DNA from: Hyphomicrobiales bacterium
GTDB taxonomy: Bacteria > Pseudomonadota > Alphaproteobacteria > Rhizobiales > Aestuariivirgaceae
Direction of reading: 5' to 3'
NCBI GenBank assembly: GCA_025362535.1
Contig: JANYGE010000088.1
Location: forward strand, 1-23,772
Length of the DNA stretch: 23,772 bases
The notes beneath the pieces were generated by a model that searched no databases, was not told where the DNA came from, and saw nothing but the letters and a program-made list of their open reading frames with translations. Shown here piece after piece: positions 3,016-18,124 of the stretch (the first letter of the stretch is position 1; every line of letters starts with the position of its first letter). The position numbers were made by a program, and so were the translations under genes.

Positions 3016-4052
3016 CAGCGCGCGTCATCGTAGCAGGTCTTGCACTCGCAGTGATGGGGGGTATCGCCTTTGGCGCGCCATCAATCATGAGCGACTATTT
3101 TATGCGCATCATATTGATCATCGCGCTCAATTCCATTTTTGTCTTATCACTGTCTTTGAGCAATGGCTTCACCGGAGTGTTTTCCTTAGGTCATGTCGGG
3201 TTTATTGGAGCAGGGGCCTATATTTCGGGTATTCTCTCGCTCACGGTGCAGCAGAAACAATCGCTTCTGCCGCATCTGCCGGACTTGCTGAATTGGTTTA
3301 GCTTGCCATTCCTGCCAGCAACATTGGTTGCAGGATTATTCACGGCGCTGCTCGCTGTCATAGTTGGCTATCCTCTTATGCGCCTGTCTGGCTATTTTGT
3401 TTCGGTGGCAACTATGGGCTTTCTAATTATCGTCAATGTGGTTCTGATTAACGCGAGCAATTTTACGCGGGGTGCGCGCACATTCACTGGTGTTCCCTTG
3501 GATACAACATTGCCTTGGGTCTTTGGCTGGTTGGCGGTGACCGTGTTTGTGCTCTGGCGCTTGGTCTATTCGCCCTTCGGGCGCCGGATGAAGGCGGTGC
3601 GTGATGACACTGTTGCTGCCAGTGCGGTTGGCATTGATGTGTTGAAGACCCGCCTTTTGGCCTTTGTCATCGGCGCCTTCTTTGCTGGTGTTGGGGGCTC
3701 GCTTTATGCTCATTATCTCGGCTCATTTTCACCAGTCACCTTCTATTTTGCGATGACGATGAATCTTATTGCCATGCTGGTTCTCGGCGGCATGGGGTCA
3801 TTGTCGGGGGCTATTATCGGCGTTATTTGTGTGTCCATCCTGTCGGAGCTTCTGCGTTCCGTCGAGCGTGGATTTACCATCGGCGATATCACCGTACCAG
3901 CGCTCTACGGCGCCAGTCAGATTGTGCTGGGTTTCATCTTTATTTTAATCATGATTTTCCGGCCGAAGGGGATCATGGGGGAACGGGAGTTTACGCTCGG
4001 GTTCTCTGGAAGTTCGGCAAAAAGCAATTTGAAACAGGGAAAAGTAAAATGA
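3012..4052 (+). CDS. livM: Liv-type ABC transporter permease (LivM-like)
   Basis: Second inner-membrane permease, 346 residues with about nine hydrophobic segments. Family signatures are LSNGFTGVFSLGHVGFIGAG near residue 50 and VLGGMGSLSGAIIGVI near residue 258. The start is GTG at 3012, overlapping the livH stop as GTGA; the length and N-terminal hydrophobic segment fit LivM. The end overlaps the start of the binding protein gene as ATGA. The C-terminal tail after FRPKGIMG is short and polar, as usual for the family. Confidence 0.94.
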   Translation: MTARVIVAGLALAVMGGIAFGAPSIMSDYFMRIILIIALNSIFVLSLSLSNGFTGVFSLGHVGFIGAGAYISGILSLTVQQKQSLLPHLPDLLNWFSLPFLPATLVAGLFTALLAVIVGYPLMRLSGYFVSVATMGFLIIVNVVLINASNFTRGARTFTGVPLDTTLPWVFGWLAVTVFVLWRLVYSPFGRRMKAVRDDTVAASAVGIDVLKTRLLAFVIGAFFAGVGGSLYAHYLGSFSPVTFYFAMTMNLIAMLVLGGMGSLSGAIIGVICVSILSELLRSVERGFTIGDITVPALYGASQIVLGFIFILIMIFRPKGIMGEREFTLGFSGSSAKSNLKQGKVK

Positions 4053-5227
4053 CACATATAACACGACGCACGGCCCTTGGTTTGGGTCTTTCTACTGCAT
4101 TTATCCTTGGCACCAACGGCAGCGCCTTTGCCGCTGACCCGATCAAGATCGGGTTCCCCGCCAACTTGACAGGCAATGCGGCTTCGCTGGATGGCCCGAT
4201 GTTAAATGGCGGCAAACTTGCCGCTGCTGAAATCAACGCGGCTGGTGGTGTGCTGGGGCGGCCCATTGAGTTGGTTGTTTACGATACCAAGAGCGATGCG
4301 ACAGTCATTTCAACGGTTGCCAGCCAGTTGATTGATAGTGACAAGGTCATCAGCATTGTTGCCTTCTCTGATTCAGATTCGGTTCTGGCCATCGGCCCAC
4401 AAATCCAGAAGGCCCAAATACCGCTGATTACCCCCGGTGCCACCTCGCCCAAGCTGCCAAGTCAGCTCGGCAATGAAGTGTTCCTCGCCTGCTTTGGCGA
4501 CAATGTGCAGGCCGCTGTTGGCGCTGAATTTGCTTTGAACTCTCTCAAAGCAAAGACGGGCTACCTGCTCACTGATATTGGAACTGAATATACCACTTTG
4601 CTGTCTGATTATTTTGTTAAAACTTATGAGCATGGCGGCGGCAAGCTGCTGGGCCAGGACAGCTATAAGACGGGTGATAAGAGCTTCACGGCTCAAATTG
4701 CCAAGATCAAGGCTTTGCCCGAAGCCCCAGGCTTTATTTACGCAGCATCTCTTGTAGATGAAGTAACTCTGATCCTGAAGCAGCTTCGCCAAGCTGGTAT
4801 TGATATTCCAGTTGTTGGCGGTGATGGTTATGACTCGCCATTGCTTCTGCAAGTTGGTGGTAAGGCGGCTGAAAACACCTTCTTCACCACCCACTCCTAT
4901 ATCGGAGCGGGTGCAACACCTAAGGTGCAGGCCTTCATGGATGCTTATAAAGCTGCAAACAAAGTGGATCCTGAAAATGCCTTTGCTGCCCTTGGCTATG
5001 ATGCTGTGAAATTGATGGCTGACGCGATCAAGCGGGCTGGTGAAGTTGACTCAGCGAAAATCCGGGATGCCATTGCGGCCACGACGGGCCTCGACGGTGT
5101 AACCGGCACAATCACCTATCGCCCCGGCATAGCAGTTCCCGATAAGTCTGTTTCCGTCATTGGCGTTAAGGATGGTAAGCTTTTCCTGGCTAGCGAAGCT
5201 GCACCAACATTCGTACCGGAGCCCTGA
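4049..5227 (+). CDS. Periplasmic substrate-binding protein, Liv/amide type
   Basis: Type I periplasmic-binding-fold protein of the Leu/Ile/Val-binding family, 392 residues, which would deliver the ligand to the LivHM/LivFG importer. The start is ATG 4049, overlapping the livM stop by four bases with GGGA upstream; an upstream in-frame extension of over 200 bases lies wholly inside livM and is rejected. Residues 1-28 form an export signal with a twin-arginine pair (TRRTALGLGL) and a likely AFA-A cleavage site, so Tat export is possible but the motif is imperfect. The mature protein begins DPIKIGFPANLTGNAA, followed by the usual GGxLGRPIELVVYD region. It is not possible to tell amino-acid, urea or amide specificity by eye. 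Confidence 0.92.
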   Translation: MTHITRRTALGLGLSTAFILGTNGSAFAADPIKIGFPANLTGNAASLDGPMLNGGKLAAAEINAAGGVLGRPIELVVYDTKSDATVISTVASQLIDSDKVISIVAFSDSDSVLAIGPQIQKAQIPLITPGATSPKLPSQLGNEVFLACFGDNVQAAVGAEFALNSLKAKTGYLLTDIGTEYTTLLSDYFVKTYEHGGGKLLGQDSYKTGDKSFTAQIAKIKALPEAPGFIYAASLVDEVTLILKQLRQAGIDIPVVGGDGYDSPLLLQVGGKAAENTFFTTHSYIGAGATPKVQAFMDAYKAANKVDPENAFAALGYDAVKLMADAIKRAGEVDSAKIRDAIAATTGLDGVTGTITYRPGIAVPDKSVSVIGVKDGKLFLASEAAPTFVPEP

Positions 5228-5231
5228 TATT

Positions 5232-5981
5232 TTGGATAACACATCACTTTGGAATACCTATCGCGCCAGCTTGGCTGGCGCGATATATACCGATCTGACC
5301 CACCCGTTTCATCCCGGTCAACCCCATTTTCCAGCCTTCCCCGACGAAGAGCGCAAACTATTCTTTGACTTTGCGAAGGGGGATGGATTTCAAGTTCATC
5401 ACTATAGTTTTGTTGGTCAATGGGGCACTCATGTCGATCCACCCGTGCATTTTATCAAAGGTGGGCGAACGCTCGACAAGATACCAGTTCAGGAAATGTT
5501 GCTGCCTTTGGTGGTAATTGACATCAGTGCACGCGTTGCCACCAATGCGGATGCAACGCCAACGCTTGATGATATCGCGGCATGGGAGCAGCGCAATGGG
5601 CGTATTCCTGAAAAATCCTTCGTCGCATTGCGCACCGATTGGTCTAAACGCTGGCCCGATGAAACGCTTTTTTATAATCGAGATGCCAACAAAATATCCC
5701 ATTGCCCTGGCTGGACCAAGCCAGTTCTGACCGAACTTCTGGAGCAGCGCGATGTGACTGCGGTGGGGCATGAGCAGTTAGATACAGACCCCGGCATTGC
5801 CACCTCAGCGGGAGATTACAGTCTTGAACACTACGTCCTTTCGCTTGATCATTGGCAAATTGAAGTCATGGCCAATCTTGATAAGGTCCCTGAAGCAGGT
5901 GCACTCATCATGGTAAGCTGGCCCAATGCAAGAGATGGTTCAGGCTTTCCAGCACGCGCGGTGGCCATTCATCGAGAGTGA
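5232..5981 (+). CDS. Cyclase-family metal-dependent hydrolase
   Basis: Member of the cyclase/kynurenine formamidase/isatin hydrolase family (PF04199), which opens cyclic amides or cleaves formamides using a divalent metal. The 249-residue length is normal. The metal-site region is GQWGTHVDPPVHF (residues 62-74), supplying His67, Asp69 and His73. The residue equivalent to the first His of the usual HxGTHxDxPxHF signature is Gln63. Other family marks are LDxxP before residue 90 and the EVMANLDKVPEAGAL block near the C-terminus. The start is taken as TTG 5232, with GGAG ten bases upstream overlapping the end of the binding-protein gene; the only upstream in-frame ATG lies deep inside that gene. 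Only four bases separate it from the transporter operon, so it is probably the last gene of that operon. The substrate is unknown. Confidence 0.85.
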   Translation: MDNTSLWNTYRASLAGAIYTDLTHPFHPGQPHFPAFPDEERKLFFDFAKGDGFQVHHYSFVGQWGTHVDPPVHFIKGGRTLDKIPVQEMLLPLVVIDISARVATNADATPTLDDIAAWEQRNGRIPEKSFVALRTDWSKRWPDETLFYNRDANKISHCPGWTKPVLTELLEQRDVTAVGHEQLDTDPGIATSAGDYSLEHYVLSLDHWQIEVMANLDKVPEAGALIMVSWPNARDGSGFPARAVAIHRE

Positions 5982-6021
5982 AAGAAGTGGAGAAATTGTT
6001 TTGCTGTTTGCTGAGACGCTT

Positions 6022-6471
6022 TTAGTCTTCTGCTATATCTTCTGACCAAAGCTCAGGCTTTTCCTTGATGAAGCGTGTCATCAGGGCGATGCAGTCGGGG
6101 TCATCGGCGATGATCACTTCAACTCCTTTGGAGAGCAAGAACGCCTCATTGCCGCCAAAGGTTTTGTTCTCGCCGATGACAACGCGGGGTATACCAAATT
6201 GGATGATTGTCCCCGTGCACATCATGCAAGGGCTGAGTGACGTATAGATTGTCATGTCGCGGTAAGTTTTCTGGCGGCCCGCTTTGCGCAAAGCATCCAT
6301 TTCACCATGAGCAATGGGGTCGCCACCTTGGACGCGCTGATTACGCCCTTGCGAGATCAGCGTTTCACCGCGTGCCAACACAGAGCCGATTGGGCAACCA
6401 CCTTCCTCAAAGCCAGCTTTGGCTTCGTCATAAGCAATGCGAAGAAATTTCTTGTCGGTTGCAGAGAGCAT
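6022..6471 (-). CDS. Cytosine deaminase, yeast Fcy1 type
   Basis: Zinc-dependent deaminase of the CMP/dCMP deaminase superfamily, 149 residues, cytoplasmic. Zinc ligands and proton shuttle are clear: His55 and Glu57 in AHGEMDAL, Cys82 and Cys85 in SLSPCMMCTG. The similarity to yeast cytosine deaminase extends well past the motifs, including GGCPIG near residue 25, GIPRVVIGEN near 93 and the closing WSEDI helix that caps the Fcy1 active site. Cytosine to uracil plus ammonia is therefore the best prediction, though related members act on other aminopyrimidines or creatinine-like rings. ATG 6471 is chosen because AGGGG lies 8 bases upstream; an upstream ATG would add 31 residues unlike the family. 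It is convergent with the cyclase gene and divergent from nasT. Confidence 0.88.
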   Translation of the reverse strand: MLSATDKKFLRIAYDEAKAGFEEGGCPIGSVLARGETLISQGRNQRVQGGDPIAHGEMDALRKAGRQKTYRDMTIYTSLSPCMMCTGTIIQFGIPRVVIGENKTFGGNEAFLLSKGVEVIIADDPDCIALMTRFIKEKPELWSEDIAED

Positions 6472-6710
6472 GGTGTTACCCCTTGATTTGAGATTTTGTA
6501 TAGGATGGAAGCGGTACGATATAGTAAATATTGAAAAGTAACTGGAGTAACTGCATGACATCACCTTTTAGGCTTTCTGCCGGTGCTGAAATGTTGTGGC
6601 AAGATAAACCGATGGCCTAGCGCATTCAAAAGCCAAACCTGTCGCTAGAAATCGCCCCACAGTCGCCGTAAACTCGTGCTGCTTTCGCAATTGCAAAATT
6701 AAATTGTGCA
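6472..6710. other. Divergent intergenic region, deaminase / nasT
   Basis: These 239 bases separate the start of the deaminase gene from the start of nasT and must hold both promoters. On the minus strand a TATACA hexamer (plus positions 6497-6502) is a possible -10 box for the deaminase gene, without a convincing -35. A 7-base direct repeat AGTAACT occurs at 6537-6543 and 6546-6552 and could be operator half-sites. On the nasT side the sequence is AT-rich from 6690 but shows no sigma-54 consensus. Nothing here resembles a gene or an RNA hairpin leader. Confidence 0.4.
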
Positions 6711-7325
6711 ATGCATCATAGAAGGATGTCAGGTTCCAATCTTACAATTCTGATTATCGATGAAAGTCCTGAACGCGCGCTCTTGATTGAGGCGGCGTTG
6801 CAGGAGGCTGGCCATCGGCACATTCGAATTGTTTCGATATTGAATGGTTTAGTGCGGCAGATTGAGGATATTGCACCTGATGTCATCATCATGGATTTGG
6901 GGAATCCCAATCGTGATTTTCTTGAGCATATGTTTCGTTTGTCCAAGGCCATTCAAAAGCCAGTTGCCATGTTTGTTGATCAATCGAGCGAGCAGGCAAT
7001 GCTGGATGCGATTGAAGCTGGTGTGTCTGCCTATGTGGTTGATGGTTTGAAACGCGAGCGCATCAAGGCCATTCTCGATCTGGCTATCATGCGGTTTCGG
7101 GCTTTTGAAAAGTTGAGACAGGAACGTGATGATGCGTTGCAAGCCCTAGACGAACGCAAGATCATCGACCGTGCCAAAGGCATTATTATGCGTCAGCGCA
7201 AGCTGGACGAAGCTGAGGCTTATGAATTGTTGCGAAAAGCCGCCATGACACAAGGCCGCCGCATTGGCCAAATTGCCGATGCCATTGTTCAATCTGACTC
7301 CATTCTTCAAGAGAAACCATCATGA
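6711..7325 (+). CDS. nasT: NasT, ANTAR-domain transcription antiterminator
   Basis: Cytoplasmic RNA-binding regulator of nitrate/nitrite assimilation, 204 residues. Residues 10-125 are a receiver-like domain (LTILIIDESPERALL; Asp62 in VIIMDLG). A short coiled linker leads to the C-terminal ANTAR domain at about residues 143-195, with the signature RAKGIIMRQRKLDEAEAYELLRKAAM split over two helices. In known NasS-NasT systems NasT is held inactive by NasS; once nitrate or nitrite binds NasS, NasT is released, binds paired hexaloop hairpins in the target leader and prevents termination. The stop overlaps nasS as ATGA, so the two are coupled. The start could be ATG 6711 or ATG 6726; neither has a well-spaced ribosome site (an AGAAGG abuts 6726). 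Confidence 0.93.
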   Translation: MHHRRMSGSNLTILIIDESPERALLIEAALQEAGHRHIRIVSILNGLVRQIEDIAPDVIIMDLGNPNRDFLEHMFRLSKAIQKPVAMFVDQSSEQAMLDAIEAGVSAYVVDGLKRERIKAILDLAIMRFRAFEKLRQERDDALQALDERKIIDRAKGIIMRQRKLDEAEAYELLRKAAMTQGRRIGQIADAIVQSDSILQEKPS

Positions 7326-8545
7326 TCCGAATAACTGCAGGTTTCCTGCCCCTCTTAGATGCATCGATCCTCATTGCTGCACACGAGAAGGGATTTGCGG
7401 AAGAGCAGGGCATTGACCTTAAACTCGTGCGTGAAATGTCTTGGGCGAACATACGTGATCGTGTTTCGGTGGGTCAGTTTGACGTCGCACATATGCTGGC
7501 ACCATTGCCAATTGCACAGAACCTTGGTCTGTCGCCGCTGGCTGTGGAGATGATTGCGCCCTTCGCGTTGGGTTTGGGTGGCAATGCTATCACCGTATCC
7601 AATGCAGTTTACACCGCATTACAGAGCGGAAATGCGGCCATCAATGGCGATGCAAAGCTTGCGGGTCTATGTTTCCGACAGTTGGTTGAGCAACGTAAAG
7701 TGAGCGGCCTGCCACTGCTGACCCTCGCCGTTGTTCACAGCTTTTCGGCTCATGCCTATGAGCTTCGCTATTGGCTGGCGGCAAGTGGCGTCAACCCGCA
7801 GTCTGATGTCTCGATCACTATTGTGCCACCAGGATTGATGGCTGACGCGCTGGCGTTAGGAGCCATAGATGGTTTTTGTGTTGGTGAACCTTGGAACAGT
7901 GTGGCCGTTGCTATGGGGGCAGGACATGTGCTGACCACCAAATCATCAATTTGGAGATCAAGCCCAGAGAAGGTGCTTGGCCTCACACGCCAATGGGCAG
8001 AGCACAATCCTGAGCTTCTCGATCAATTGCTGCTGGCACTGCATCGCAGTGCCGTATGGTGTGCAAACGCCGAGAATGTCGATGAGCTTGCTGGCATTCT
8101 TACACGCTCCTTATACCTTGATGTACCTTTAGAGCATTTATATCACGGTCTGCATGGCGAGGTCGGGCATCGCGCCGAGGGTAATGCCTTCCTGCAATTC
8201 TATCACAATGCCGCAAACTTTCCGTGGCAGAGCCATGCTCTGTGGTTTTATACGCAAATGGTGCGATGGCATCATCTTGATCTCAGCCTTGAAGGCGCCA
8301 GTCGGGCCAAGGCAACCTATCGCCCAGACATATATCGTCGAGCGCTTCAATCAGCAGGCATTGCATTGCCCGGTGCCAGTTCAAAGGTTGAAGGCGCACT
8401 TCTTTCACCCACCCATGTTCCAGCACAGGGTGGTCAATTGGTTCTTGGGCCAGATGGCTTTTTTGATGGGGTGGCTTTTGATCCCGACGCGTTACAGAGC
8501 TATATCGAGGCGAGTCCATTTTATGATGCATTGCACAAATTTTGA
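7322..8545 (+). CDS. nasS: NasS, cytoplasmic nitrate/nitrite sensor
   Basis: A 407-residue protein of the NrtA/CmpA binding-protein family that lacks any signal peptide: it starts directly with MIRITAGFLPLLDASILIAA, the first strand of the fold. It shares blocks with NrtA encoded just downstream, including MSWANIRD against ASWGATRD, the GEPWN segment near residue 185 and FPWQSHALWF against FPFKSHDAWF. Absence of an export signal plus four-base overlap with nasT identifies it as NasS, the ligand sensor that sequesters NasT when nitrate and nitrite are absent. An alternative reading as a stray nitrate-binding protein is unlikely given the pairing. Confidence 0.92.
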   Translation: MIRITAGFLPLLDASILIAAHEKGFAEEQGIDLKLVREMSWANIRDRVSVGQFDVAHMLAPLPIAQNLGLSPLAVEMIAPFALGLGGNAITVSNAVYTALQSGNAAINGDAKLAGLCFRQLVEQRKVSGLPLLTLAVVHSFSAHAYELRYWLAASGVNPQSDVSITIVPPGLMADALALGAIDGFCVGEPWNSVAVAMGAGHVLTTKSSIWRSSPEKVLGLTRQWAEHNPELLDQLLLALHRSAVWCANAENVDELAGILTRSLYLDVPLEHLYHGLHGEVGHRAEGNAFLQFYHNAANFPWQSHALWFYTQMVRWHHLDLSLEGASRAKATYRPDIYRRALQSAGIALPGASSKVEGALLSPTHVPAQGGQLVLGPDGFFDGVAFDPDALQSYIEASPFYDALHKF

Positions 8546-8593
8546 TCGGCATGGCGCTTGAAATTCCAGCATCGGAATGAATAGAGTTTTTGA

Positions 8594-8630
8594 CCTGCAA
8601 TGCCAATCCACTGAAATTGCAGGGTTTTTT
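8594..8630 (+). terminator. Intrinsic terminator after nasTS
   Basis: An 8-base perfect inverted repeat, CCTGCAAT (8594-8601) and ATTGCAGG (8616-8623), with a 14-base loop, is followed by GTTTTTTATTTT. It lies 48 bases after the nasS stop. Because the sigma-54-like site comes after it, it should end the nasTS transcript and insulate the nrt operon from readthrough. Confidence 0.82.
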
Positions 8631-8643
8631 ATTTTCTCTGATC

Positions 8644-8659
8644 TGGCACGGCACGTGCA
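8644..8659 (+). promoter_or_regulatory. Sigma-54-type promoter of the nrt-nir-nas operon
   Basis: The 16 bases TGGCACGGCACGTGCA match the sigma-54 consensus TGGCACG-N4-TTGCA at every defined position but one (G in place of the first T of TTGC). The GG of the -24 element and the GC of the -12 element are separated by exactly 10 bases, as required. Transcription would start near 8669-8671, just before or within the outer base pairs of the first leader hairpin. Sigma-54 with NtrC control is common for nitrogen assimilation genes; no clear NtrC site was found upstream. Confidence 0.62.
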
Positions 8660-8667
8660 AAGCCAAC

Positions 8668-8750
8668 AATAACCCCATGATGGGTATTCCGACAATGCAG
8701 TCGGCAGGATGGCAATATTTGTTGCTGCTCCTGTCGACTTTTTTGTTTTG
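8668..8750 (+). promoter_or_regulatory. ANTAR (NasT) antitermination leader of nrtA
   Basis: The leader has two contiguous hairpins with six-base loops. P1 is at 8668-8688: CCC/GGG plus AATA/TATT around one bulged A, loop CATGAT with G at loop position 4. P2 is at 8689-8704: CCGAC/GTCGG, loop AATGCA, having the A1 and G4 expected of ANTAR targets. The 3' arm of P2 (8700-8704) is also the base of the terminator stem at 8700-8738, so P2 and terminator exclude each other. NasT binding to P1/P2 should favour P2 and let RNA polymerase pass. The regulator genes lie immediately upstream. P1's first loop base is C rather than A, a departure from the consensus. Confidence 0.82.
8700..8749 (+). terminator. 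Conditional terminator in the nrtA leader
   Basis: Stem of ten pairs: GTCGGCAGGA (8700-8709) with TCCTGTCGAC (8729-8738), one of them a G-U pair. The apical part can form GCAA/TTGC (8712-8715 with 8722-8725). A run of six T at 8739-8744, then G and four T, follows directly. It ends 19 bases before the nrtA start codon and overlaps the P2 hairpin, marking it as an attenuator rather than an end-of-operon terminator. Confidence 0.85.
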
Positions 8751-8767
8751 GCAAAAGGAGAAATTTG

Positions 8768-10057
8768 ATGACGAATTCCATTCCTGTCGGCTCCGTGACA
8801 CGCCGCACTTTCTTGAAAAAAACTGTAGCAACTGCGACCTTGCTGGGCGCGGCCAAGAGTCTTTTGCCGCACGGTGCGCTAGCCGCCAGCGGACCCGAAG
8901 TGAATGCCGCAAAATTGGGTTTTATTGCGCTCACCGATTCTTCGCCGCTGATCATAGCCAAGGAAAAAGGTCTATTTGAAAAATATGGCATGGCGGGTGT
9001 TGAGGTTTTGAAACAAGCATCTTGGGGTGCAACACGCGATAACTTGGTATTGGGTTCTGCCGGAAATGGCATTGATGGTGCGCATATTCTTTCACCCATG
9101 CCATATTTGATGACATTGGGAACCATCACTCAAAACAATGTGCCGTTGCCTATGAAAATTCTAGCTAGGCTCAATTTGGATGGGCAAGCGATATCGGTGG
9201 CACAAACCTATGCTGACTTGAAGGTTGGCATTGATGCCTCTCCACTGCGAGACGTCTTTGCCAAGAAGAAGGCCAGTGGTGCGATGGCGAAAGTCGCCGT
9301 CACCTTTCCAGGTGGTACGCATGATTTGTGGATGCGTTATTGGTTGGCAGCGGCGGGCATAAATCCAAACACTGATGTTGAAACCATTGTCGTGCCGCCG
9401 CCGCAAATGGTGGCCAATATGAAAGTTGGTACTATGGATGCCTTCTGTGTGGGTGAGCCTTGGAACGCACAACTTGTTTCACAAGGCATTGGATACACCG
9501 CAGCATCGACAGGTGAATTGTGGTCGAAGCATCCAGAAAAGTCTTTGGCATTGCGTGCCGATTTTGCTGACCAATATCCAAAAGCCACCGAAGCCATTCT
9601 GATGGCTGTGATGGAAGCACAGCAATGGTGCGATGCCGATACCAATAAGGATGAGTTAGCGGATATTGTTTCTAAACGCGCTTGGTTCAACGTTAAGAAA
9701 GAAGACATAATCGGTCGCCTGAAGGGCAATATTGACTATGGCAATGGCAAGATTGTTTCCGCCAGCCCCCACATCATGAAATTCTGGCGCGATGCAGCGT
9801 CTTTCCCGTTCAAAAGTCACGATGCGTGGTTCCTTACAGAAAATATGCGCTGGGGCAAAGTGAAGTTGGACACCGACGTGACGGCGCTCGTTGCCAAAGT
9901 GAATGGTGCAGATTTGTGGCGCTCGGCGGCCAAGACTTTGGGTGTGACAGATGTTCCCGCATCAGACTCACGTGGAATTGAAACCTTCTTCGACGGCAAG
10001 ATTTTCGATCCAAAAAACCCGAATGCCTATCTCGACAGCCTAATAGTTAGGGCTTGA
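8768..10057 (+). CDS. nrtA: NrtA, nitrate ABC transporter binding protein
   Basis: Periplasmic nitrate-binding component of the NrtABC importer, 429 residues, NrtA/CmpA family. The N-terminus carries a textbook twin-arginine signal, TRRTFLKK at residues 11-18, a hydrophobic stretch and likely cleavage after GALA near residue 39, so it is probably exported by Tat. The GEPWN ligand-region block lies near residue 228. ATG 8768 is chosen because AGGAG stands 7 bases upstream; the TTG one codon earlier is less likely. The mature part is clearly related to NasS upstream. Expression should depend on the leader just before it. Bicarbonate-binding CmpA is the nearest alternative, but the nitrate reductase genes downstream decide for nitrate. 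Confidence 0.94.
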   Translation: MTNSIPVGSVTRRTFLKKTVATATLLGAAKSLLPHGALAASGPEVNAAKLGFIALTDSSPLIIAKEKGLFEKYGMAGVEVLKQASWGATRDNLVLGSAGNGIDGAHILSPMPYLMTLGTITQNNVPLPMKILARLNLDGQAISVAQTYADLKVGIDASPLRDVFAKKKASGAMAKVAVTFPGGTHDLWMRYWLAAAGINPNTDVETIVVPPPQMVANMKVGTMDAFCVGEPWNAQLVSQGIGYTAASTGELWSKHPEKSLALRADFADQYPKATEAILMAVMEAQQWCDADTNKDELADIVSKRAWFNVKKEDIIGRLKGNIDYGNGKIVSASPHIMKFWRDAASFPFKSHDAWFLTENMRWGKVKLDTDVTALVAKVNGADLWRSAAKTLGVTDVPASDSRGIETFFDGKIFDPKNPNAYLDSLIVRA

Positions 10058-10064
10058 TTTTAAA

Positions 10065-10973
10065 ATGACCAATGCAATGCGCAAACAGAATTTGCTTGTG
10101 GCAACCCCCATTACTACTTTGGCCGTGCAGCAAGCAAAAGTGCTGGCCTTGCCACAGCGCAAATTAACGCGGCCAGCCATATTGAAACCTGCTCTCCGAA
10201 GGATAGCGGCGGTGACACTTCCGCCTCTTGCAGTCCTGGCGGTGCTTTTGGTGATTTGGCAAATTGCGGCCTCGCAAGCAGGCTCAAGTTTGCCACCACC
10301 GACCCAAGTTTTCACTGATAGCAGAGACCTGATTTTGCATCCTTTTTTTGACCATGGGGGCAATGACAAGGGCCTAGGGTTTCATATCCTAGCCTCTCTC
10401 AGCCGAGTGGCGATTGGCTATTCGATTGCGGCCATTGTCGGAATAGCGCTTGGTTCACTGGTCGGGCAATCAGTATATTTCATGCGCGGTTTCGATCCGA
10501 TCTTTCAAGTGCTGCGCACGGTGCCCCCATTGGCTTGGTTGCCGATTTCACTGGCGGCATTTCGGGATGGCCAACCCTCTGCTATTTTCGTGATCTTCAT
10601 TACTGCGGTGTGGCCTGTCATTATAAACACTGCGGCGGGCATTCGCAATATTCCACAAGATTATCGCAATGTAGCGCGCGTGTTGCAACTCAATCCATTT
10701 GAATATTTTACCAAGATTATGGTGCCTGCTGCGGCACCTTACATCTTCACAGGACTTCGCATCGGTGTTGGTCTTTCGTGGCTCGCCATTGTTGCCGCGG
10801 AAATGCTCATCGGCGGTGTGGGGATAGGGTTTTTCATTTGGGATGCGTGGAACTCATCACTGATCAGCGACATTATCGTGGCACTGGTTTACGTCGGACT
10901 TGTTGGTTTCGTACTGGATCGCATCATCGCCTTTATCGGTCATGTCGTCACCCGTGGCACGGCAGTGAATTGA
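10065..10973 (+). CDS. nrtB: NrtB, nitrate ABC transporter permease
   Basis: Inner-membrane permease of the nitrate importer, 302 residues. After a basic cytoplasmic leader of about 48 residues there are about six hydrophobic segments. Family features are the RTVPPLAWLPISLAAF block near residue 150 and the EAA-type coupling loop RNIPQDYRNVARVLQLN near residue 197. The NrtB-typical LSWLAIVAAEMLIGGVGIGF block lies near residue 240. It starts 7 bases after nrtA; ribosome-site support is weak, and ATG 10077 is an alternative that would shorten the protein by four residues. It should work as a homodimer with NrtC. Confidence 0.94.
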   Translation: MTNAMRKQNLLVATPITTLAVQQAKVLALPQRKLTRPAILKPALRRIAAVTLPPLAVLAVLLVIWQIAASQAGSSLPPPTQVFTDSRDLILHPFFDHGGNDKGLGFHILASLSRVAIGYSIAAIVGIALGSLVGQSVYFMRGFDPIFQVLRTVPPLAWLPISLAAFRDGQPSAIFVIFITAVWPVIINTAAGIRNIPQDYRNVARVLQLNPFEYFTKIMVPAAAPYIFTGLRIGVGLSWLAIVAAEMLIGGVGIGFFIWDAWNSSLISDIIVALVYVGLVGFVLDRIIAFIGHVVTRGTAVN

Positions 10974-10981
10974 GGGCAATC

Positions 10982-11776
10982 ATGCAAAAACCATATCTCT
11001 CACTTTCTCTCGTCAACAAATCCTTCCAGCGCGGCCAGATCGTTTCTGAAGTGCTCAAGGGCATTTCATTGGATGTTGCCAAGGGCGAATATGTTTCGCT
11101 CATCGGCCATTCTGGTTGCGGCAAATCCACATTGCTCAATCTCATAGCGGGGCTGATACCCATAACATCGGGTGCCGTCATACTCGAAGACAAGCATGTG
11201 CGAGGGCCAGGGCCAGACCGCGCCGTGGTGTTCCAAAATCACTCTCTGCTGCCGTGGTTGACGGTTTTTGAAAATGTCAAACTGGCGGTGGATAAAGTTT
11301 GGCGTTCTGAAAACGCACCTACACGTAATGCCCGTATCATGGACTGCCTCAATCTTGTCCACATGGCTCACGCCAAAGACAAACGCCCCGCCGAAATTTC
11401 TGGCGGCATGAAACAACGCGTGGGCATTGCGCGTGCCTTGGCCATGGAGCCAAAAGTGTTGTTGCTGGATGAACCTTTTGGTGCGCTTGACGCGCTTACG
11501 CGGGCGCATTTGCAAGACCAGGTGATGCAGATTCATCAGGCGCTGAAAAACACTGTTATCATGATCACACATGATGTGGATGAAGCGGTGCTGCTGTCTG
11601 ATCGTATCGTCATGCTGACCAATGGTCCGGCTGCAACTATTGGTGAAATTCATGAGGTTAAATTATCGCGCCCGCGCAAGCGATTGGAGCTGGTGACGGA
11701 TCTTACTTACATCCGCGCCCGCGAGGCGGTTTTGAAATTTCTATATGAGCGCAACAAATTTGTGGAGGCGGCGTGA
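10982..11776 (+). CDS. nrtC: NrtC/D-type nitrate transporter ATPase
   Basis: ATPase of the nitrate importer, 264 residues: Walker A GHSGCGKST, Q-loop FQNHSLLPWLTV, signature EISGGMKQRVGIARALA, Walker B VLLLDEPFGALDALTR and switch His in ITHDVDEAVLLSD. ATG 10982 (protein MQKPYLSL) has GAGGG a few bases upstream and gives the family length; the longer open frame reaching back into nrtB is rejected. It lacks the C-terminal nitrate-binding regulatory domain of cyanobacterial NrtC, so it resembles NrtD in form, and as the only ATPase of the set it must act as a homodimer. Its TGA stop ends at the first base of the nirB ATG. Confidence 0.93.
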   Translation: MQKPYLSLSLVNKSFQRGQIVSEVLKGISLDVAKGEYVSLIGHSGCGKSTLLNLIAGLIPITSGAVILEDKHVRGPGPDRAVVFQNHSLLPWLTVFENVKLAVDKVWRSENAPTRNARIMDCLNLVHMAHAKDKRPAEISGGMKQRVGIARALAMEPKVLLLDEPFGALDALTRAHLQDQVMQIHQALKNTVIMITHDVDEAVLLSDRIVMLTNGPAATIGEIHEVKLSRPRKRLELVTDLTYIRAREAVLKFLYERNKFVEAA

Positions 11777-14223
11777 TGAAAAAGAAACTCGTCATTGTCG
11801 GCAATGGCATGGCACCAGGGCGCATGCTGGAGCATTTGTTTGAACTTGCGCCAGACCTTTATGACGTAACGATTTTTAATGCTGAACCGCGCGTCAATTA
11901 CAATCGGTTGATGCTATCACCAGTATTGTCGGGCGAAAAGACCTATGAGGACATCATTACTCACGGCGATGATTGGTATTTAGCGAATGGCGTTACTCTG
12001 CACAAGGGTAGCAAGGTTGAAGCGATTGATCGTGTCGCGAGAACGGTTGCGGCGGCTGATGGCACTGTTGCTCATTACGACAAACTGGTGATTGCCACGG
12101 GTTCCGTTCCGTTTGTCATTCCCGTTCTTGGTCATCAACTGCCTGGTGTAGTTACATATCGTGATCTCGATGATGTTGAGAAAATGCTGGCGGCAGCCAC
12201 ACCCGATGCAAAAGCCGTGGTTATTGGCGGCGGCCTATTGGGCCTCGAAGCGGCGGCTGGCCTCAAGATGCGCGGCATGGATGTAACTGTCGTCCACCTT
12301 ATGTCGACCTTGATGGAGCGTCAGCTTGACCCACCCGCAGCGCATCTGCTCGAACAGGAGTTCGAAAAACGCGGCATCAAAATCCGTACCAAGTCCAACA
12401 CCCATTCCATTTTGGGCGAAAGCAAAGTCATGGGTTTGAAACTCGAAGATGGGACGGAACTGCCGTGCAGCATTGTCGTAATGGCTGTTGGCATTCGCCC
12501 CTCAACTGCATTGGCCAAGGCTAGCGACATCACAGTCAATCGCGGAATTATGGTTGATGATCAAATGCGCACCAACGATCCTGATATTTTTGCACTGGGC
12601 GAATGTGCTGAACATCGGGGCGTTGTTTATGGGCTGGTAGCACCGCTCTACGAGATGGCGCGGACCATTGCCGAGGTGTTGGTAGAAAAGCCAGCAGCTT
12701 ATGGTGGTTCTGTCATGTCAACTAAACTCAAAGTCACCGGCGTCGATCTTTACTCCGGCGGCGATTTCGCCGAAGCCCAAGACCGCGAGGAAATCGTTTT
12801 GCGTGATGCCTCACGCGGTGTTTACAAACGGCTGGTCATTAAAGACAACAAGATTATCGGCGTGGTGCTTTATGGTGAAACGTCCGATGGCCCATGGTTC
12901 TTTGATAAATTAAAAAAAGGCGAAGATGTATCCAAAGATCGCGACATGCTGATCTTCGGACAGGCTTACGCGGGAGGACCCCCCCTGGACCCTACGGCGG
13001 CCGTTGCAGCCTTACCGCCTGACGCAGAAATCTGCGGCTGCAACGGCATTTGCAAATCGAAAATAACCGACGCGATATCGGAAAAAGGATTGACCTCAAT
13101 TGATGACGTGCGAGCCCATACTAAAGCTTCGGCCTCATGTGGCTCCTGTACTGGATTGGTCGAAAAACTTCTCGTTTTGTCATTAGGTGAGAAATACCAG
13201 GCCAATGCCGTGCAACCCATGTGCAAATGCACAGACTTGGGTCATGGTGATGTGCGGCGCTTGATTGTTGCCAAGCAAATCAAATCCATTCCACAATTGA
13301 TGCAGGAGTTGGAGTGGAAGACGTCATGTGGCTGCGCCAAATGTCGCCCGGCGCTGAATTACTATCTCATTGCCGAATGGCCAGGCGAATATGAAGATGA
13401 CAACCAGTCGCGCTTCATCAATGAGCGCGTCCACGCGAATATTCAGAAAGATGGCACTTACTCGGTAGTGCCCCGCATGTGGGGCGGCATGACCAGTGCA
13501 GCCGAATTGCGCGCCATCGCTGATGTTGCGGACAAGTTTCAAATTCCTGCAGTTAAGGTAACGGGTGGTCAACGCATCGATCTGCTTGGCGTGAAAAAGG
13601 AAGATCTACCAGCCGTATGGTCGGATCTCAACGCGGCAGGCATGGTATCTGGTGCGGCCTATGCCAAGGGCCTGCGCACGGTTAAAACCTGTGTTGGTTC
13701 AGAATGGTGCCGCTTCGGTACGCAAGACTCGACTGGCCTTGGCATCAAGCTTGAGAAATTCATGTGGGGGTCTTGGACGCCAGCGAAAGTGAAGCTCGCA
13801 GTCTCTGGTTGTCCACGCAATTGCGCGGAAGCAACATGTAAAGACATTGGCGTAATTTGTGTTGATTCAGGTTACGACATTCATTTTGCAGGCGCAGCCG
13901 GCCTCGACATTAAAGGCACCGAATTATTGTGTCATGTCGATACGGAAGATGCAGCAATCGAAGTGATTGCGGCACTGACGCAGCTTTACCGCGAGCAGGG
14001 CCATTACCTTGAGCGCATTTATAAATGGGCCAAGCGTGTTGGCCTCGAATCGATCAAGACTAACATCGTGGAGAATGTTGAGAAGCGCAGAAACTATTTT
14101 GCTCGCTTCACGCATGCGCAAACTTTTTTGCAGGTTGATCCGTGGGCCGAGCGTGTCTCTGGTAAGCATGCTCACGAGTTTTTGCCAATGCGAAGCTTCC
14201 CCATGCAGATAGCGGCGGAGTGA
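11776..14223 (+). CDS. nirB: NirB, assimilatory NADH-nitrite reductase large subunit
   Basis: Cytoplasmic six-electron reductase of nitrite to ammonium, 815 residues. Domains in order: FAD-binding KKKLVIVGNGMAPG at the N-terminus and IFALGECAE near 275; NADH-binding VVIGGGLLGLEAA near 150; BFD-like [2Fe-2S] domain with Cys420, Cys422, Cys455 and Cys458; ferredoxin-like sulfite/nitrite reductase half-domains; and the siroheme/[4Fe-4S] ligands Cys639, Cys645 (TCVGSEWCRFG) and Cys679, Cys683 (SGCPRNCAEA). A further Cys-rich block (MCKC near 483 and CGCAKC near 518) fits a second Fe-S segment in that region. ATG 11776 has GGAGG 7 bases upstream and is preferred to GTG 11773. It is coupled to nrtC and followed by nirD; siroheme would come through the downstream cysG product. 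Confidence 0.97.
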   Translation: MKKKLVIVGNGMAPGRMLEHLFELAPDLYDVTIFNAEPRVNYNRLMLSPVLSGEKTYEDIITHGDDWYLANGVTLHKGSKVEAIDRVARTVAAADGTVAHYDKLVIATGSVPFVIPVLGHQLPGVVTYRDLDDVEKMLAAATPDAKAVVIGGGLLGLEAAAGLKMRGMDVTVVHLMSTLMERQLDPPAAHLLEQEFEKRGIKIRTKSNTHSILGESKVMGLKLEDGTELPCSIVVMAVGIRPSTALAKASDITVNRGIMVDDQMRTNDPDIFALGECAEHRGVVYGLVAPLYEMARTIAEVLVEKPAAYGGSVMSTKLKVTGVDLYSGGDFAEAQDREEIVLRDASRGVYKRLVIKDNKIIGVVLYGETSDGPWFFDKLKKGEDVSKDRDMLIFGQAYAGGPPLDPTAAVAALPPDAEICGCNGICKSKITDAISEKGLTSIDDVRAHTKASASCGSCTGLVEKLLVLSLGEKYQANAVQPMCKCTDLGHGDVRRLIVAKQIKSIPQLMQELEWKTSCGCAKCRPALNYYLIAEWPGEYEDDNQSRFINERVHANIQKDGTYSVVPRMWGGMTSAAELRAIADVADKFQIPAVKVTGGQRIDLLGVKKEDLPAVWSDLNAAGMVSGAAYAKGLRTVKTCVGSEWCRFGTQDSTGLGIKLEKFMWGSWTPAKVKLAVSGCPRNCAEATCKDIGVICVDSGYDIHFAGAAGLDIKGTELLCHVDTEDAAIEVIAALTQLYREQGHYLERIYKWAKRVGLESIKTNIVENVEKRRNYFARFTHAQTFLQVDPWAERVSGKHAHEFLPMRSFPMQIAAE

Positions 14224-14226
14224 AAA

Positions 14227-14556
14227 ATGAACTGGATTGATATTGGAGCTGTTGATGATGTTCCTGTTCGTGGCTCTCGCGTTGTGACGACGACGGCTGG
14301 AGACATTGCCATATTCAAAACCGCCGACAGTCGTGTTTTCGCGTTGTGGGATAAATGTCCGCATAAGGGTGGCCCTCTCAGCCAAGGTATTGTGCATGAT
14401 GATAGTGTCACCTGTCCTCTGCACAATTGGGTGATTGGTCTTGAAGCTGGCGAGGTCAGAGGCCCTGACCAAGGCTGTGCCCGTAAGGTGGAAACGCGGT
14501 TAGAAGCTGGCCGCATTTTATTGCCTTCACATATTCTCGGGCGGAAGGCCGCTTAG
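14227..14556 (+). CDS. nirD: NirD, nitrite reductase small subunit with intact Rieske site
   Basis: Rieske-fold small subunit of assimilatory nitrite reductase, 109 residues, cytoplasmic. Unlike E. coli NirD, which has lost its cluster ligands, this protein retains a full Rieske set: Cys44 and His46 (KCPHKGGPLSQG) and Cys63 and His66 (TCPLHNW), so a [2Fe-2S] cluster is expected. It corresponds in form and position to NasG of Paracoccus, which carries electrons from the NADH-oxidising NirB-like protein to nitrate reductase. The ATG lies three bases after the nirB stop, with GGAG inside the nirB end, and the nasA ATG directly follows its stop, so all three are probably co-translated. Confidence 0.95.
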   Translation: MNWIDIGAVDDVPVRGSRVVTTTAGDIAIFKTADSRVFALWDKCPHKGGPLSQGIVHDDSVTCPLHNWVIGLEAGEVRGPDQGCARKVETRLEAGRILLPSHILGRKAA

Positions 14557-17172
14557 ATGGCGGGGGAAGCCACGCGCACAACCTGTCCCTATTGCGGTGT
14601 TGGCTGTGGTGTCTTAGCCAAGCGAGAAGGGGACGGTTCCGTAACAATTAAAGGTGATCCGGATCATCCTGCCAATTTCGGTCGACTATGTTCCAAAGGC
14701 TTGGCGCTTGCCGAAACCTTCGGGCTTGAGCAACGTCTCTTGCACCCACGTGTTGGTGGTAGAGATGTTTCATGGGCGGATGCAACAACAGAGGTGGCTC
14801 ACAAATTTTCAGAAGCCATCCGCGATCATGGCCCAGATTCGGTTGCATTTTATGTGTCAGGGCAATTTCTCACAGAAGATTATTATGTTGCCAACAAACT
14901 AATGAAGGGTTTTATCGGTTCGGCCAATATCGACACAAACTCAAGGCTGTGTATGGCGTCTGCAGTTGCGGGGCACAAGCGGGCCTTCGGTGCAGATGTT
15001 GTGCCGTGCAATTACACCGATCTGGAAGAAGCTGATCTGGTGGTGCTGGTTGGTTCAAATCTCGCGTGGTGCCATCCAGTCTTGTTTCAACGTCTGCAAG
15101 CAGCACGGGAGAGGCGCGGAACAAAATTAGTGGTCATTGACCCACGCCGGACCATGACGGCAGAATGCGCTGATCTCCATCTTCAGATTAAGTCAGGCTC
15201 TGATATTTCGCTGTTTAATGGTTTGCTGCAAAATCTTTACAGCCGCGGCGAAATTGATTCGCGCTTTGTGTTTGCACATACTGCAGGACTTGCTGAAACA
15301 CTACTCACCGTCACCGCACATAATGAAACACGAGTGGCTTCGGACACCAGTTTGTCGCTCAGAGAGTTACGAACTTTCTACGATCTCTTTGCCGCAAACG
15401 CTAAAACCGTAACCGTTTTTTCGATGGGCGTGAATCAAGCGAGAGATGGTACGGATAAAGTCAACGCCATCATCAACTGCCATTTGCTAACCGGACGCAT
15501 CGGTAAAATTGGAGCAGGTCCATTTTCCATCACGGGCCAGCCTAACGCAATGGGTGGGCGGGAAGTTGGTGGATTGGCCAATATGCTTGCGGCCCATATG
15601 GACATCGACAATCCTGATCATCGCGCAGGCGTGCAGAGTTTTTGGCAATCACCGCAGATCGTCACGAATTCTGGATTGAAGGCTGTTGATCTGTTCGAAG
15701 CAGTTCACGAAGGGAGGATCAAAGCCCTCTGGATCATGGCGACAAACCCTGCAGTCAGCATGCCGGATTCCATACGAATTGTTGAGGCGTTAAAAGTCTG
15801 TCCCTTTGTTGCAGTGTCTGATGTCACGGCAAATATGGAAACAGCACAATATGCGCATGTGCTTCTCCCCGCCAAGGGCTGGGGCGAGAAGGATGGGACG
15901 GTCACAAATTCCGAGCGGCGCATTTCGCGGCAGCATAGTTTTTTGCCAGCGACAGGTGAAGCTAAAGAAGACTGGCGCATCATGTGTGACGTGGCAATAA
16001 AAATGGATTTTAGTGGTTTCGATTATTCGTCACCAGCAGAAATTTTTGCAGAACATGCAGCCCTCACCCAGGTTTTGAACAATGGCAACAGAACACTTGA
16101 TCTCAAGGATATTGCTGCAAGTGACTATGCCGAACTGCTTCCGCAACAATGGGGAGGCTCACGTCCCTTTTCAAACGGACAGTTTGAAACACCAGATCGC
16201 AAGGCACGGTTTGTTCCAACACCGACGTCCTCCGCAACAACTACTGCAGCTGAAACTTACACGCTCAATACGGGCCGCATTCGTGATCAATGGCATACCA
16301 TGACACGAACGGGACTTGTACCTAGACTATTTGGCCATCGTGCAGAGCCTTATGTGGAGGTTTGCGCGGCTGATGCAGTAAGACTCAATTTACGAGAGGC
16401 CGAACTCACCAGCATTCAGGGTCCTCATGGCAGCGCTGTTGTGCGCGTTTTGATATCTGATGCTGTTTCGCATGGTGAAGTTTTTCAGCCAATGCACTGG
16501 AGCAACTCTTTTGCTTCAGCATCCAAAGCCAACGCTGTTTCGCGCAGTATCGTGGATCCTATCAGTGGGCAACCAGCGCTAAAATCCGCATCAGTATCGA
16601 TCAAGCGATTTCCGGCCCGCTGGTATGGCTATGGCGTAACAGTGAATTCCATCAAACCGGTTTTCGACTATTGGGCTATTAGACCGCTGGCAAACGGTCA
16701 GTCGTTTGAATGTGCCGGACTCGAGCAGCCCGAAGATTGGCGGAGTTTGCTGAGTGAACTCTTCGATTTGAATGATCCTGCATCGGATGTGACATATGTC
16801 TCATCAAAGCCAAATGCAGCATTTCGGTGCGTCGCCACACGGACAGGGAGACTGCATTTTGCTTTCTTCGTTAGCCAAACTCCTGTGCAAGCCAGCCGTC
16901 ATTGGTTGCAGCAGTTGCTTGGATCAGAGGTTGAGGCCGCGACGATTTTGGCAGGTAGGCCAGCGGCCTCCACTTCTGACATCGGACCAATCGTGTGCTC
17001 CTGCAACTCTGTTGGCCGTTCTCAAATCAAGGCAGCCATCGTGGCACTGCCCGGCGCATCGCTCAGTTTGATCTGTGGGGAAACCAAAGCCGGTACGGGT
17101 TGCGGCTCATGCCGACCTGAAATTCAAAGGATCATCAATGAAACCGCAAACTACGCCCAAGCAGCGGAATAG
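14557..17172 (+). CDS. nasA: Assimilatory nitrate reductase catalytic subunit
   Basis: Molybdenum enzyme (bis-MGD cofactor) reducing nitrate to nitrite in the cytoplasm, 871 residues. The N-terminal [4Fe-4S] motif is Cys10, Cys13, Cys17 and Cys45 (CPYCGVGCGV ... RLCSKG), followed by molybdopterin oxidoreductase domains (GQPNAMGGREVGGLANML near 328, MATNPAVSMPD near 394, MHWSNSFAS near 646 in the dinucleotide-binding domain). The C-terminal 60 residues are a BFD-like [2Fe-2S] domain (VCSCNS ... TGCGSCRPE) seen in NasA/NarB-type enzymes. No separate flavoprotein NasB is present, so electrons may come from NirB/NirD. The ATG abuts the nirD stop. Its last 35 bases overlap cysG. Confidence 0.96.
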   Translation: MAGEATRTTCPYCGVGCGVLAKREGDGSVTIKGDPDHPANFGRLCSKGLALAETFGLEQRLLHPRVGGRDVSWADATTEVAHKFSEAIRDHGPDSVAFYVSGQFLTEDYYVANKLMKGFIGSANIDTNSRLCMASAVAGHKRAFGADVVPCNYTDLEEADLVVLVGSNLAWCHPVLFQRLQAARERRGTKLVVIDPRRTMTAECADLHLQIKSGSDISLFNGLLQNLYSRGEIDSRFVFAHTAGLAETLLTVTAHNETRVASDTSLSLRELRTFYDLFAANAKTVTVFSMGVNQARDGTDKVNAIINCHLLTGRIGKIGAGPFSITGQPNAMGGREVGGLANMLAAHMDIDNPDHRAGVQSFWQSPQIVTNSGLKAVDLFEAVHEGRIKALWIMATNPAVSMPDSIRIVEALKVCPFVAVSDVTANMETAQYAHVLLPAKGWGEKDGTVTNSERRISRQHSFLPATGEAKEDWRIMCDVAIKMDFSGFDYSSPAEIFAEHAALTQVLNNGNRTLDLKDIAASDYAELLPQQWGGSRPFSNGQFETPDRKARFVPTPTSSATTTAAETYTLNTGRIRDQWHTMTRTGLVPRLFGHRAEPYVEVCAADAVRLNLREAELTSIQGPHGSAVVRVLISDAVSHGEVFQPMHWSNSFASASKANAVSRSIVDPISGQPALKSASVSIKRFPARWYGYGVTVNSIKPVFDYWAIRPLANGQSFECAGLEQPEDWRSLLSELFDLNDPASDVTYVSSKPNAAFRCVATRTGRLHFAFFVSQTPVQASRHWLQQLLGSEVEAATILAGRPAASTSDIGPIVCSCNSVGRSQIKAAIVALPGASLSLICGETKAGTGCGSCRPEIQRIINETANYAQAAE

Positions 17173-18019
17173 GGCACCGCGTATTGAATCACTTTCGGTC
17201 CTGCCGGTGTTCCTTGACCTCAGGGGTAAGACGGCCGTGATTGTGGGTGATGGCAATGCGGCGCTGTGGAAATTGGAACTCTTAGCAAGTGCTGGGGCAA
17301 AAGTGCGATACATATGCAAGCAGCCAACCCAGGAACTGTTAGATCTGCTGAGCAATGGCAGGTTGGATATTTCGGTTGAAACTGAAGATTGGTGTGATTT
17401 GGACTTTTCTGGCGCGGCAATCATTATTGCAGCCATTGCTCACGAGGAAGCAGCTACATTCCTTGCCCACGCCCAGAGATACACCTCCATGGTCAATGTG
17501 GTTGATCAACCCGATTTCTGCACATTTCAGTTTGGCTCCATCGTCAACAAGTCGCCATTGGTTATCGGCATTTCAACATCAGGAGCTGGCCCCGTGCTGG
17601 CACAATATTTGCGCAATCTGATTGAAGCAATTCTTCCTGATAGCATTCAAAATCGTGTGAAGCGGGCCGCCGCCATTCGCATCCGCGTGAATGCACGATT
17701 GGCCAGCACCGTTCAGCGGCGCAAATATTGGAGCGCTTACTTTGGCAGAAGCTTTGGCTTTCATTCTTCCAAGGAAGGTGACTGTGGCACAACACATATT
17801 GTCAGGGTCTCCAGCGTTGAGAATCTCACATTGGCTGACATTCGCCAAATGCAAGGCGCGGACCGGATTTACTATTGCAATGGCGTTGATCAAGCGATTT
17901 TGAGTTATGGCCGACGCGAAGCACAGCGTATTGAAGTCAAGTCCTTTGATGAAGTCGCCAGCGAGCGAAACGTGCTGCCGCGCAGTGTGTTCATTGCACC
18001 TGCTGCTGTCGCTTGTTGA
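17138..18019 (+). CDS. cysG: CysG-type siroheme protein: precorrin-2 dehydrogenase with methyltransferase remnant
   Basis: A 293-residue protein whose first about 205 residues match the dehydrogenase/ferrochelatase half of CysG: VFLDLRGKTAVIVGDGNAAL (NAD site, residues 24-43), catalytic-type Asp123 in VNVVDQPDFC, and STSGAGPVLAQYLRNLIE then the helical dimerisation segment ending RRKYWSAYF. It should oxidise precorrin-2 and insert iron to finish siroheme for NirB. Residues about 218-268 still align with the start of the SUMT methyltransferase half (LTLADIRQMQGADRIYY against LTLKGLQQIQQADVVVY of E. coli CysG), but the SAM-binding GAGPGD segment and the rest of the domain are missing. ATG 17138 has AAAGG 7 bases upstream and overlaps nasA by 35 bases. 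A separate SUMT gene must exist elsewhere. Confidence 0.86.
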   Translation: MKPQTTPKQRNRAPRIESLSVLPVFLDLRGKTAVIVGDGNAALWKLELLASAGAKVRYICKQPTQELLDLLSNGRLDISVETEDWCDLDFSGAAIIIAAIAHEEAATFLAHAQRYTSMVNVVDQPDFCTFQFGSIVNKSPLVIGISTSGAGPVLAQYLRNLIEAILPDSIQNRVKRAAAIRIRVNARLASTVQRRKYWSAYFGRSFGFHSSKEGDCGTTHIVRVSSVENLTLADIRQMQGADRIYYCNGVDQAILSYGRREAQRIEVKSFDEVASERNVLPRSVFIAPAAVAC

Positions 18020-18048: not shown

Positions 18049-18124
18049 TGGTGCCGCTTAGGTGAATCGAACACCTGACCCCGTCATTACGAATGACGTG
18101 CTCTACCGACTGAGCTAAAGCGGC
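18049..18124 (-). tRNA. tRNA-Thr(CGU), CCA encoded
   Basis: The minus strand folds into a full cloverleaf: acceptor GCCGCTT/AAGCGGC, D-arm GCTC/GAGC, anticodon stem CGTCA/TGACG with loop TTCGTAA, and T-arm AGGTG-TTCGATT-CACCT. The anticodon CGT reads ACG codons, so the tRNA carries threonine. Discriminator A and a 3' CCA are encoded in the DNA. It lies 52 bases after the hemY stop on the same strand and converges on cysG. A possible promoter (TTGAAT, 17 bases, TAATTC) lies between hemY and the tRNA but is weak. Confidence 0.96.

Follow-up and report, generated by a model that had tools for sequence, protein, structure and literature searches.

A leader RNA with hairpins and a terminator, situated after nasS and ahead of the structural genes of the nas cluster, has been described in Paracoccus denitrificans (PMC3795266, PMC5424462), whose regulator pair, NasS-NasT, is the same as that of the locus analysed here. 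Binding of the Paracoccus nas leader by NasT has been reported (PMC3795266). Two of its hairpins, HI and HII, are placed 137 and 91 bp before nasA; alteration of HI caused a severe drop in expression on nitrate and, when made in the chromosome, abolished growth on nitrate; alteration of HII had relatively little effect on expression with nitrate and doubled it with ammonium (PMC5424462). The EutV leaders of Enterococcus faecalis also have two hexaloops, the second of which overlaps a terminator (PMC3369931, PMC8934654). Their linkers measure 5-12 nt, the loops of eutP are 24 nt apart (A29 and A53), and a 3-nt linker drastically cut induction (PMC3369931). In Klebsiella oxytoca, a nitrate-assimilation operon is likewise subject to nitrate-responsive ANTAR antitermination at the NasR/nasF leader; NasR prefers a C-G closing pair and a loop with A1 and G4 (PMC3369936, PMC7496416), and senses nitrate itself through its NIT domain.

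The window, that is, the whole stretch of 23,772 nt that was analysed, carries what is probably a compact, divergent variant of this known antiterminator type. We give a probability of about 0.86 to the reading that the site is the leader of a nitrate-assimilation operon and a NasT-dependent transcription antiterminator. Its second hairpin, P2, has the A1 and G4 of the EutV leaders and fits the preference of NasR; its first hairpin, P1, shares G4 with the EutV leaders, but its loop, unlike theirs, begins with C. The two loops are 18 nt apart and the linker is only 3 nt long, and the range of the eut linkers fails for the NasT leaders as well. Unlike in NasR, the presumed sensor is a separate protein, NasS. 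The window has two hexaloops, whereas the Paracoccus locus of our collection (L077) has three, and it has a sigma54-type promoter, whereas no site in the gap of L077 scores above 11. The features of the locus are as follows.

6711..7325, + strand: nasT, receiver-ANTAR protein, presumed antiterminator (Pfam ANTAR 67 bits, Response_reg 38.3 bits)
7322..8545, + strand: nasS, NrtA-like, presumed nitrate/nitrite sensor, overlapping nasT (Pfam NMT1_2 221 bits)
8594..8630, + strand: intrinsic terminator ending nasTS, 8-bp stem 8594-8601/8616-8623, then T6 at 8625-8630
8644..8659, + strand: sigma54-type -24/-12 promoter TGGCACGGCACGTGCA, start expected near 8670
8672..8685, + strand: P1 hexaloop hairpin, ACCC-CATGAT-GGGT, 4 bp, from fold and comparison
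8689..8704, + strand: P2 hexaloop hairpin, CCGAC-AATGCA-GTCGG, 5 bp, predicted antiterminator
8700..8744, + strand: intrinsic terminator, arms 8700-8716 and 8721-8738, T6 at 8739-8744
8753..8770, + strand: ribosome-binding site AAAAGGAG (8753-8760) and ATG of nrtA (8768), by eye
8768..18019, + strand: presumed controlled genes nrtA, nrtB, nrtC/D, nirB, nirD, nitrate reductase and a siroheme-synthesis protein

The genes for NasT and NasS lie directly upstream of the leader, as an earlier note made from the sequence of the window had stated, and nasT adjoins nasS in the relatives too. Translation of nasT probably begins at its second Met, ATG 6726 rather than 6711, because the aligned codons of the relative L060 contain a stop before the inner Met. 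A profile search of the genome, which is 92.76% complete, found nasT as the sole ANTAR match. The top match of NasT among solved structures was 6wsh (E 2.6e-15), with 6ww6 as a further entry, and we assume that both are the EutV structures from PMC8934654. In our alignment, with a numbering offset of 2 that we infer, EutV residues R142, E160 and Y164, which are reported to coordinate loop G4 (PMC8934654), correspond to R149, E167 and Y171 of NasT and are all kept. Upstream of nasT, at 601-6564, the list of open reading frames shows by eye genes for a branched-chain-amino-acid-type ABC transporter, a cyclase-like protein and a deaminase, preceded by one for an isochorismatase-like protein; the 601-6564 genes are possibly a nitrogen-scavenging cluster.

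The nasTS genes are closed by their own terminator (-13.0 kcal/mol, z -3.12, 0 of 200 shuffles as good), which means that the nrt-nas operon is expected to need a promoter of its own; inspection by eye showed no such closing terminator in L060, L100 or L101. The site TGGCACGGCACGTGCA has the top sigma54-type score on either strand of the window (14.5; the runner-up has 14), and the sigma54 consensus with its usual promoter-to-start spacing puts the start of the RNA near 8670. The genome encodes RpoN, and an NtrC match is above its cut-off (656.3 against 558.6 bits). The genes downstream, which we infer from order and strand to form one operon, were assigned by Pfam and NCBIfam, with matches to a nitrate permease (TIGR01183, 332 bits), a nitrate ATPase (TIGR01184, 337.5 bits) and NirD (TIGR02378, 90.5 bits). 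The nitrate reductase (14557-17172) has an extra C-terminal BFD-like [2Fe-2S] domain, and its NCBIfam matches are below their cut-offs among the matches listed (25 of 26). A tRNA-Thr gene (CGT) lies directly past the operon on the minus strand, at 18049-18124.

P2 was described correctly to the letter in the earlier note, including its loop with A1 and G4 and its 3' arm inside a ten-pair terminator stem followed by six T. In that stem 8700-8709 pair with 8729-8738, one pair being G-U, and seven more pairs follow past a bulged C8728. P2 alone has a folding energy of -6.4 kcal/mol (1 of 200 shuffles as good) and the terminator, folded as 8695-8750, one of -25.0 kcal/mol (0 of 200). The two are mutually exclusive in the predicted folds: the leader reaches -29.4 kcal/mol with the terminator and -24.2 kcal/mol with P2 enforced, in which case the leftover hairpin stops 5 nt short of the U-tract. 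When the transcript was folded with its start fixed at 8670 and its end moved on by 5 nt at a time, P2 was predicted to be present at every end point in the range 8704-8734 other than 8724, and to be displaced by 8739.

P1 differs from its first description. It had been drawn at 8668-8688, a form that depends on one bulged A and on three outer pairs that are weak, and we rejected this 7-bp hairpin, since the predicted fold covers only 8672-8685 and has 4 bp. The outermost drawn pairs are also unlikely because their bases are situated at or ahead of the expected start near 8670, which places P1 at the 5' end of the RNA. The loop, CAUGAU, does begin with C instead of A, as had been noticed, and it keeps G4 and a C-G closing pair. 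On the other hand, the two hairpins had been said to have no linker and this had been called unusual, neither of which holds: 3 nt separate them, and 2-4 nt are found in 34 of the 39 leaders in which P1 stands at -17..-21. The fold of P1 alone is within chance (matched by 67 of 200 shuffles), and so is that of the stretch 8668-8710 containing both hairpins (22 of 200). The support for P1 is comparative, coming from its position in relatives and from covariation, and by analogy with EutV it would be a recruitment hairpin.

For the comparison, NasT relatives were sought at E up to 1e-20 in sampled genomes of the class, the order and the family of the window and were found in 58 of 385, 187 of 397 and 7 of 69 genomes, respectively, the window's own genome being counted in each. 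The distribution in the family is patchy, with NasT in 2 of 10 genera. We fetched 60 loci from the order and 20 from the class, for the most part the best matches, together with 40 from named genomes; the remaining three family loci were fetched later. We examined 120 loci (L060-L179) and the window, leaving out L003-L059, whose flanks were too short. A usable gap after nasS was present in 88 of the 121, and up to 450 nt of each were tested. L064-L066 are near-identical, and L184, which repeats the leader of L060, was left out of the counts. No relative was found in viral contigs.

Our first rule, which required the terminator to start within the 3' arm of P2, was satisfied by 10 of the 88 gaps, 15 of 1760 shuffles and none of 88 reverse strands. 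It was relaxed once after leaders with plain hairpins were missed, and the counts that follow are hence tuned on the same data: a hairpin with an A1/G4 hexaloop and its 3' arm in the base of a terminator was found in 53 of the 88 gaps, compared with 13 of 4400 shuffled gaps and a single one of the 88 reverse strands. With any loop letters allowed, 60 gaps qualified. The 35 gaps that fail the relaxed rule include L060, L100 and L104, in which the arrangement is present by eye and whose P2 positions were set by hand as the strict rule had missed them; in some of the 35 no counterpart of the arrangement was visible. With L185 and L186, which were added later by motif, the collection came to 58 leaders. 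Sigma54-type scores of at least 14.5 occurred in 39 of the 88 gaps and 17 of 4400 shuffles, and scores of at least 13 in 56 gaps and 307 shuffles.

An alignment for compensatory changes, which the earlier note had proposed as a check, gave double changes at 9 of the 11 P1 and P2 pairs over 28 leaders. Of the cells in these pairs 83.1% were paired, against 76.0% after shuffling and 31.5-49.7% when the pairs were slid, a percentage that is favoured because the 28 leaders were picked partly for having hairpins. Four of five covariation measures were reached by none of 500 shuffles, the fifth (pair types) by 31 of 500; MAFFT offsets L185 and L101 by two columns in alignment A2, which lowers the P1 counts. 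Joint change of P2 and the terminator, on which the earlier note had staked its reading, was also observed, and the reading was not refuted: position 8701 changes together with 8692 in P2 and 8737 in the terminator, the three being A-U-A in the window and G-C-G in L060, L185, L101, L100, L186 and L104. This triple change is probably one event on the branch of the window.

The spacing of the hairpins is conserved as well. Of the 58 leaders, 39 have a hexaloop hairpin of at least 4 bp at 17-21 nt ahead of the P2 loop, where shuffles lead one to expect 3.3; 27 of them have A1 and G4 (0.19 expected) and 35 have G4. All 7 family leaders have a hexaloop hairpin with 3 or more pairs 17-18 nt before the P2 loop, and such a hairpin arises in 59 to 170 of 2000 shuffles per leader, figures uncorrected for relatedness. 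The anatomy of the leader, the mutual exclusion of its predicted folds, its conservation and its covariation are direct results, and together with nasT-nasS upstream and nasT as the only ANTAR gene found they support the reading as a NasT target with which the earlier note began.

A search with RNA family models, also proposed there, gave no such support, the site matching no Rfam family at E up to 5. We built a hold-out model, R2, on 24 leaders, with the window, L060, L185 and L101 kept out and L100, L186 and L104 in the training set. Unfiltered, R2 scored the site at 8.0 bits, third within the window, and did not single it out as a member; a search of the window's own genome at E up to 10, in which 150 of 2463 candidates were scored, did not list the site. 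When 22 sources were searched with the filter on, at E up to 1, R2 missed the window and L060 and found L101 (0.091) and L185 (0.46) weakly. Model R1, built from 28 leaders including the window and therefore circular for it, scored the site at 35 bits and the next site of the genome at 21.7 bits (150 of 1635 candidates scored); the latter lies inside a long frame read by eye as urocanase, and we rejected it as a chance match. By sequence and structure taken together, the element is therefore divergent, and it is assigned by its position, its regulator, the P2 loop, the overlap with the terminator, the spacing and the covariation. Besides the low R2 score, the chance-level fold of P1 and its lack of A1, the 35 gaps that fail the relaxed rule, and the published effects of a 3-nt linker in EutV leaders and of the HII change in Paracoccus also speak against the reading.

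One NasT clade (support 0.99) comprises the window, L060, L101 and L185, and all four have P2 at promoter+50; in the window the P1 loop lies at promoter+32 and the P2 loop 18 nt further on. L100 (+60) and L186 (+58, by eye) are also compact, yet they pair elsewhere in the NasT tree, and L104, of the same genus, has a long leader that contains three hexaloops. No NasT genomes other than these seven were found in the family. The P1 loops of the compact leaders other than the window are CUCGAU (L060), UAACAA (L185), UCACAA (L101), GGUGAC (L100) and GCUGAC (L186), so that A1 is missing from all six compact family leaders, the window included, and G4 from two (L101 and L185). Compactness and loss of A1 are not tied, since L120, outside the family, has P2 at +58 and keeps A1 and G4 in P1 (AAUGGC). 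At the position equivalent to EutV R142 (R149 in the window), 86 of 90 NasT rows have R, 2 have gaps, and only L101 and L185 have Q. The change from R to Q and the loss of G4 in P1 are possibly a co-change of protein and RNA, counting as one event since L101 and L185 are sisters.

A sigma54-type site scoring at least 13 precedes P2 in 42 of the 58 leaders, and in 30 of these P2 stands at promoter+71 to +89. Where such a site is present and P2 follows it by at least 65 nt (34 leaders), we found a further hexaloop hairpin, H0, 31-37 nt past the start of the site in 21 (2.8 expected), of which 14 have A1 and G4 (0.15 expected); the flanking intervals hold 1, 1 and 2 hairpins against 2.7-2.8 expected. 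H0 occurs together with H1, a hexaloop hairpin 17-26 nt before P2 with any loop letters, in 18 of the 34, alone in 3, and H1 without H0 in 13. We suggest, at somewhat less than even odds, that many alphaproteobacterial nas leaders carry three NasT hexaloops on a ruler set by the promoter, that NasT may step along them or bridge them, and that the clade of the window has lost one unit. Typical distances from the start of the -24 element may be about 33 nt for H0, 59 for H1 and 78 for P2, with H0 at the 5' end of the RNA. The lone P1 of the window, which lies at the H0 distance from the promoter and at the H1 distance from P2, may have a loop that drifted from the consensus. The ruler is not universal, P2 being at promoter+119, +212 and +119 in L113, L115 and L121.

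The next start codon in the Paracoccus locus L077 follows the hexaloops at distances of 138, 114 and 91 nt. Their possible equivalence with HI and HII is by position only, and the downstream gene in L077 is nirB-like and not nasA; the pattern suggests that the middle hairpin was perhaps untouched by the Paracoccus mutants. If HII comprises both P2 and the terminator, its change may have hit the two at once. The NasT oligomer was reported as 'broadly consistent with a hexamer' (PMC3795266), whence the idea that the three hairpins might carry one dimer each. Dual hexaloops or unspecified hairpins are what the available parts of the literature describe (PMC3369931, PMC8934654, PMC8164766, PMC7496416, PMC3795266, PMC5424462, PMC6759348, PMC3369936), and no description of a three-hexaloop ANTAR or NasT leader was found in the literature searched, the Azotobacter NasT paper (PMC3426680) and a Bradyrhizobium hairpin figure being beyond reach; we regard the pattern as provisionally new.

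Other explanations of the window's leader were weighed against antitermination through both hairpins. P2 could be the only NasT site and P1 a remnant or a passive 5' hairpin, which would make this a single-hexaloop antiterminator. Such a reading would accommodate the chance-level fold of P1 and the loss of A1, and in part of G4, from the compact family leaders, and EutV is reported to bind one hexaloop (PMC8934654). We nevertheless consider it unlikely, since a hairpin is kept 17-18 nt before P2 in all seven family leaders despite sequence change, the P1 pairs covary over the 28 leaders, and P1 of the window retains G4 and the C-G closing pair.

It is far less probable that the terminator is a plain attenuator that merely lowers expression, with the small hairpins as by-products of its sequence. 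No other fold comes near the terminator in stability, and the terminator includes the 3' arm of P2; the 5' arm, however, lies outside it, yet 8692 changes with 8701 and 8737, and 53 of the 60 gaps that qualify with any loop letters have A1 and G4, downstream of nasT. Ribosome-dependent attenuation through a leader peptide has the least probability of all and was rejected: a frame from ATG 8677, inside the open reading frame 8590-8979, does extend across the terminator and encodes five consecutive leucines, but it is contradicted by L060, the nearest relative, in which the equivalent frame stops by eye after five codons, and no ribosome-binding site was seen, nor is leucine the product of the pathway.

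For the preferred reading, a NasT-dependent antiterminator, the sensing by NasS, the binding by NasT and the antitermination itself are modelled on the named relatives. When nitrogen is scarce, the sigma54/NtrC-type promoter would start RNA near 8670. Without nitrate, NasS would hold NasT, the longer terminator hairpin would overrun P2, and polymerase would stop at 8739-8744. With nitrate or nitrite, NasT would be freed, meet the emerging P1 and then hold P2; the remaining hairpin would be shorter and 5 nt off the U-tract, and the operon would be transcribed.

A NasT target is thereby supported by comparison in a little-known alphaproteobacterial lineage, and the published rules of A1 in both loops and a linker of 5-12 nt fail in the lineage of the window. 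If the three promoter-anchored hexaloops of its relatives are functional, they would bear on whether an ANTAR dimer binds both hairpins or moves between them.
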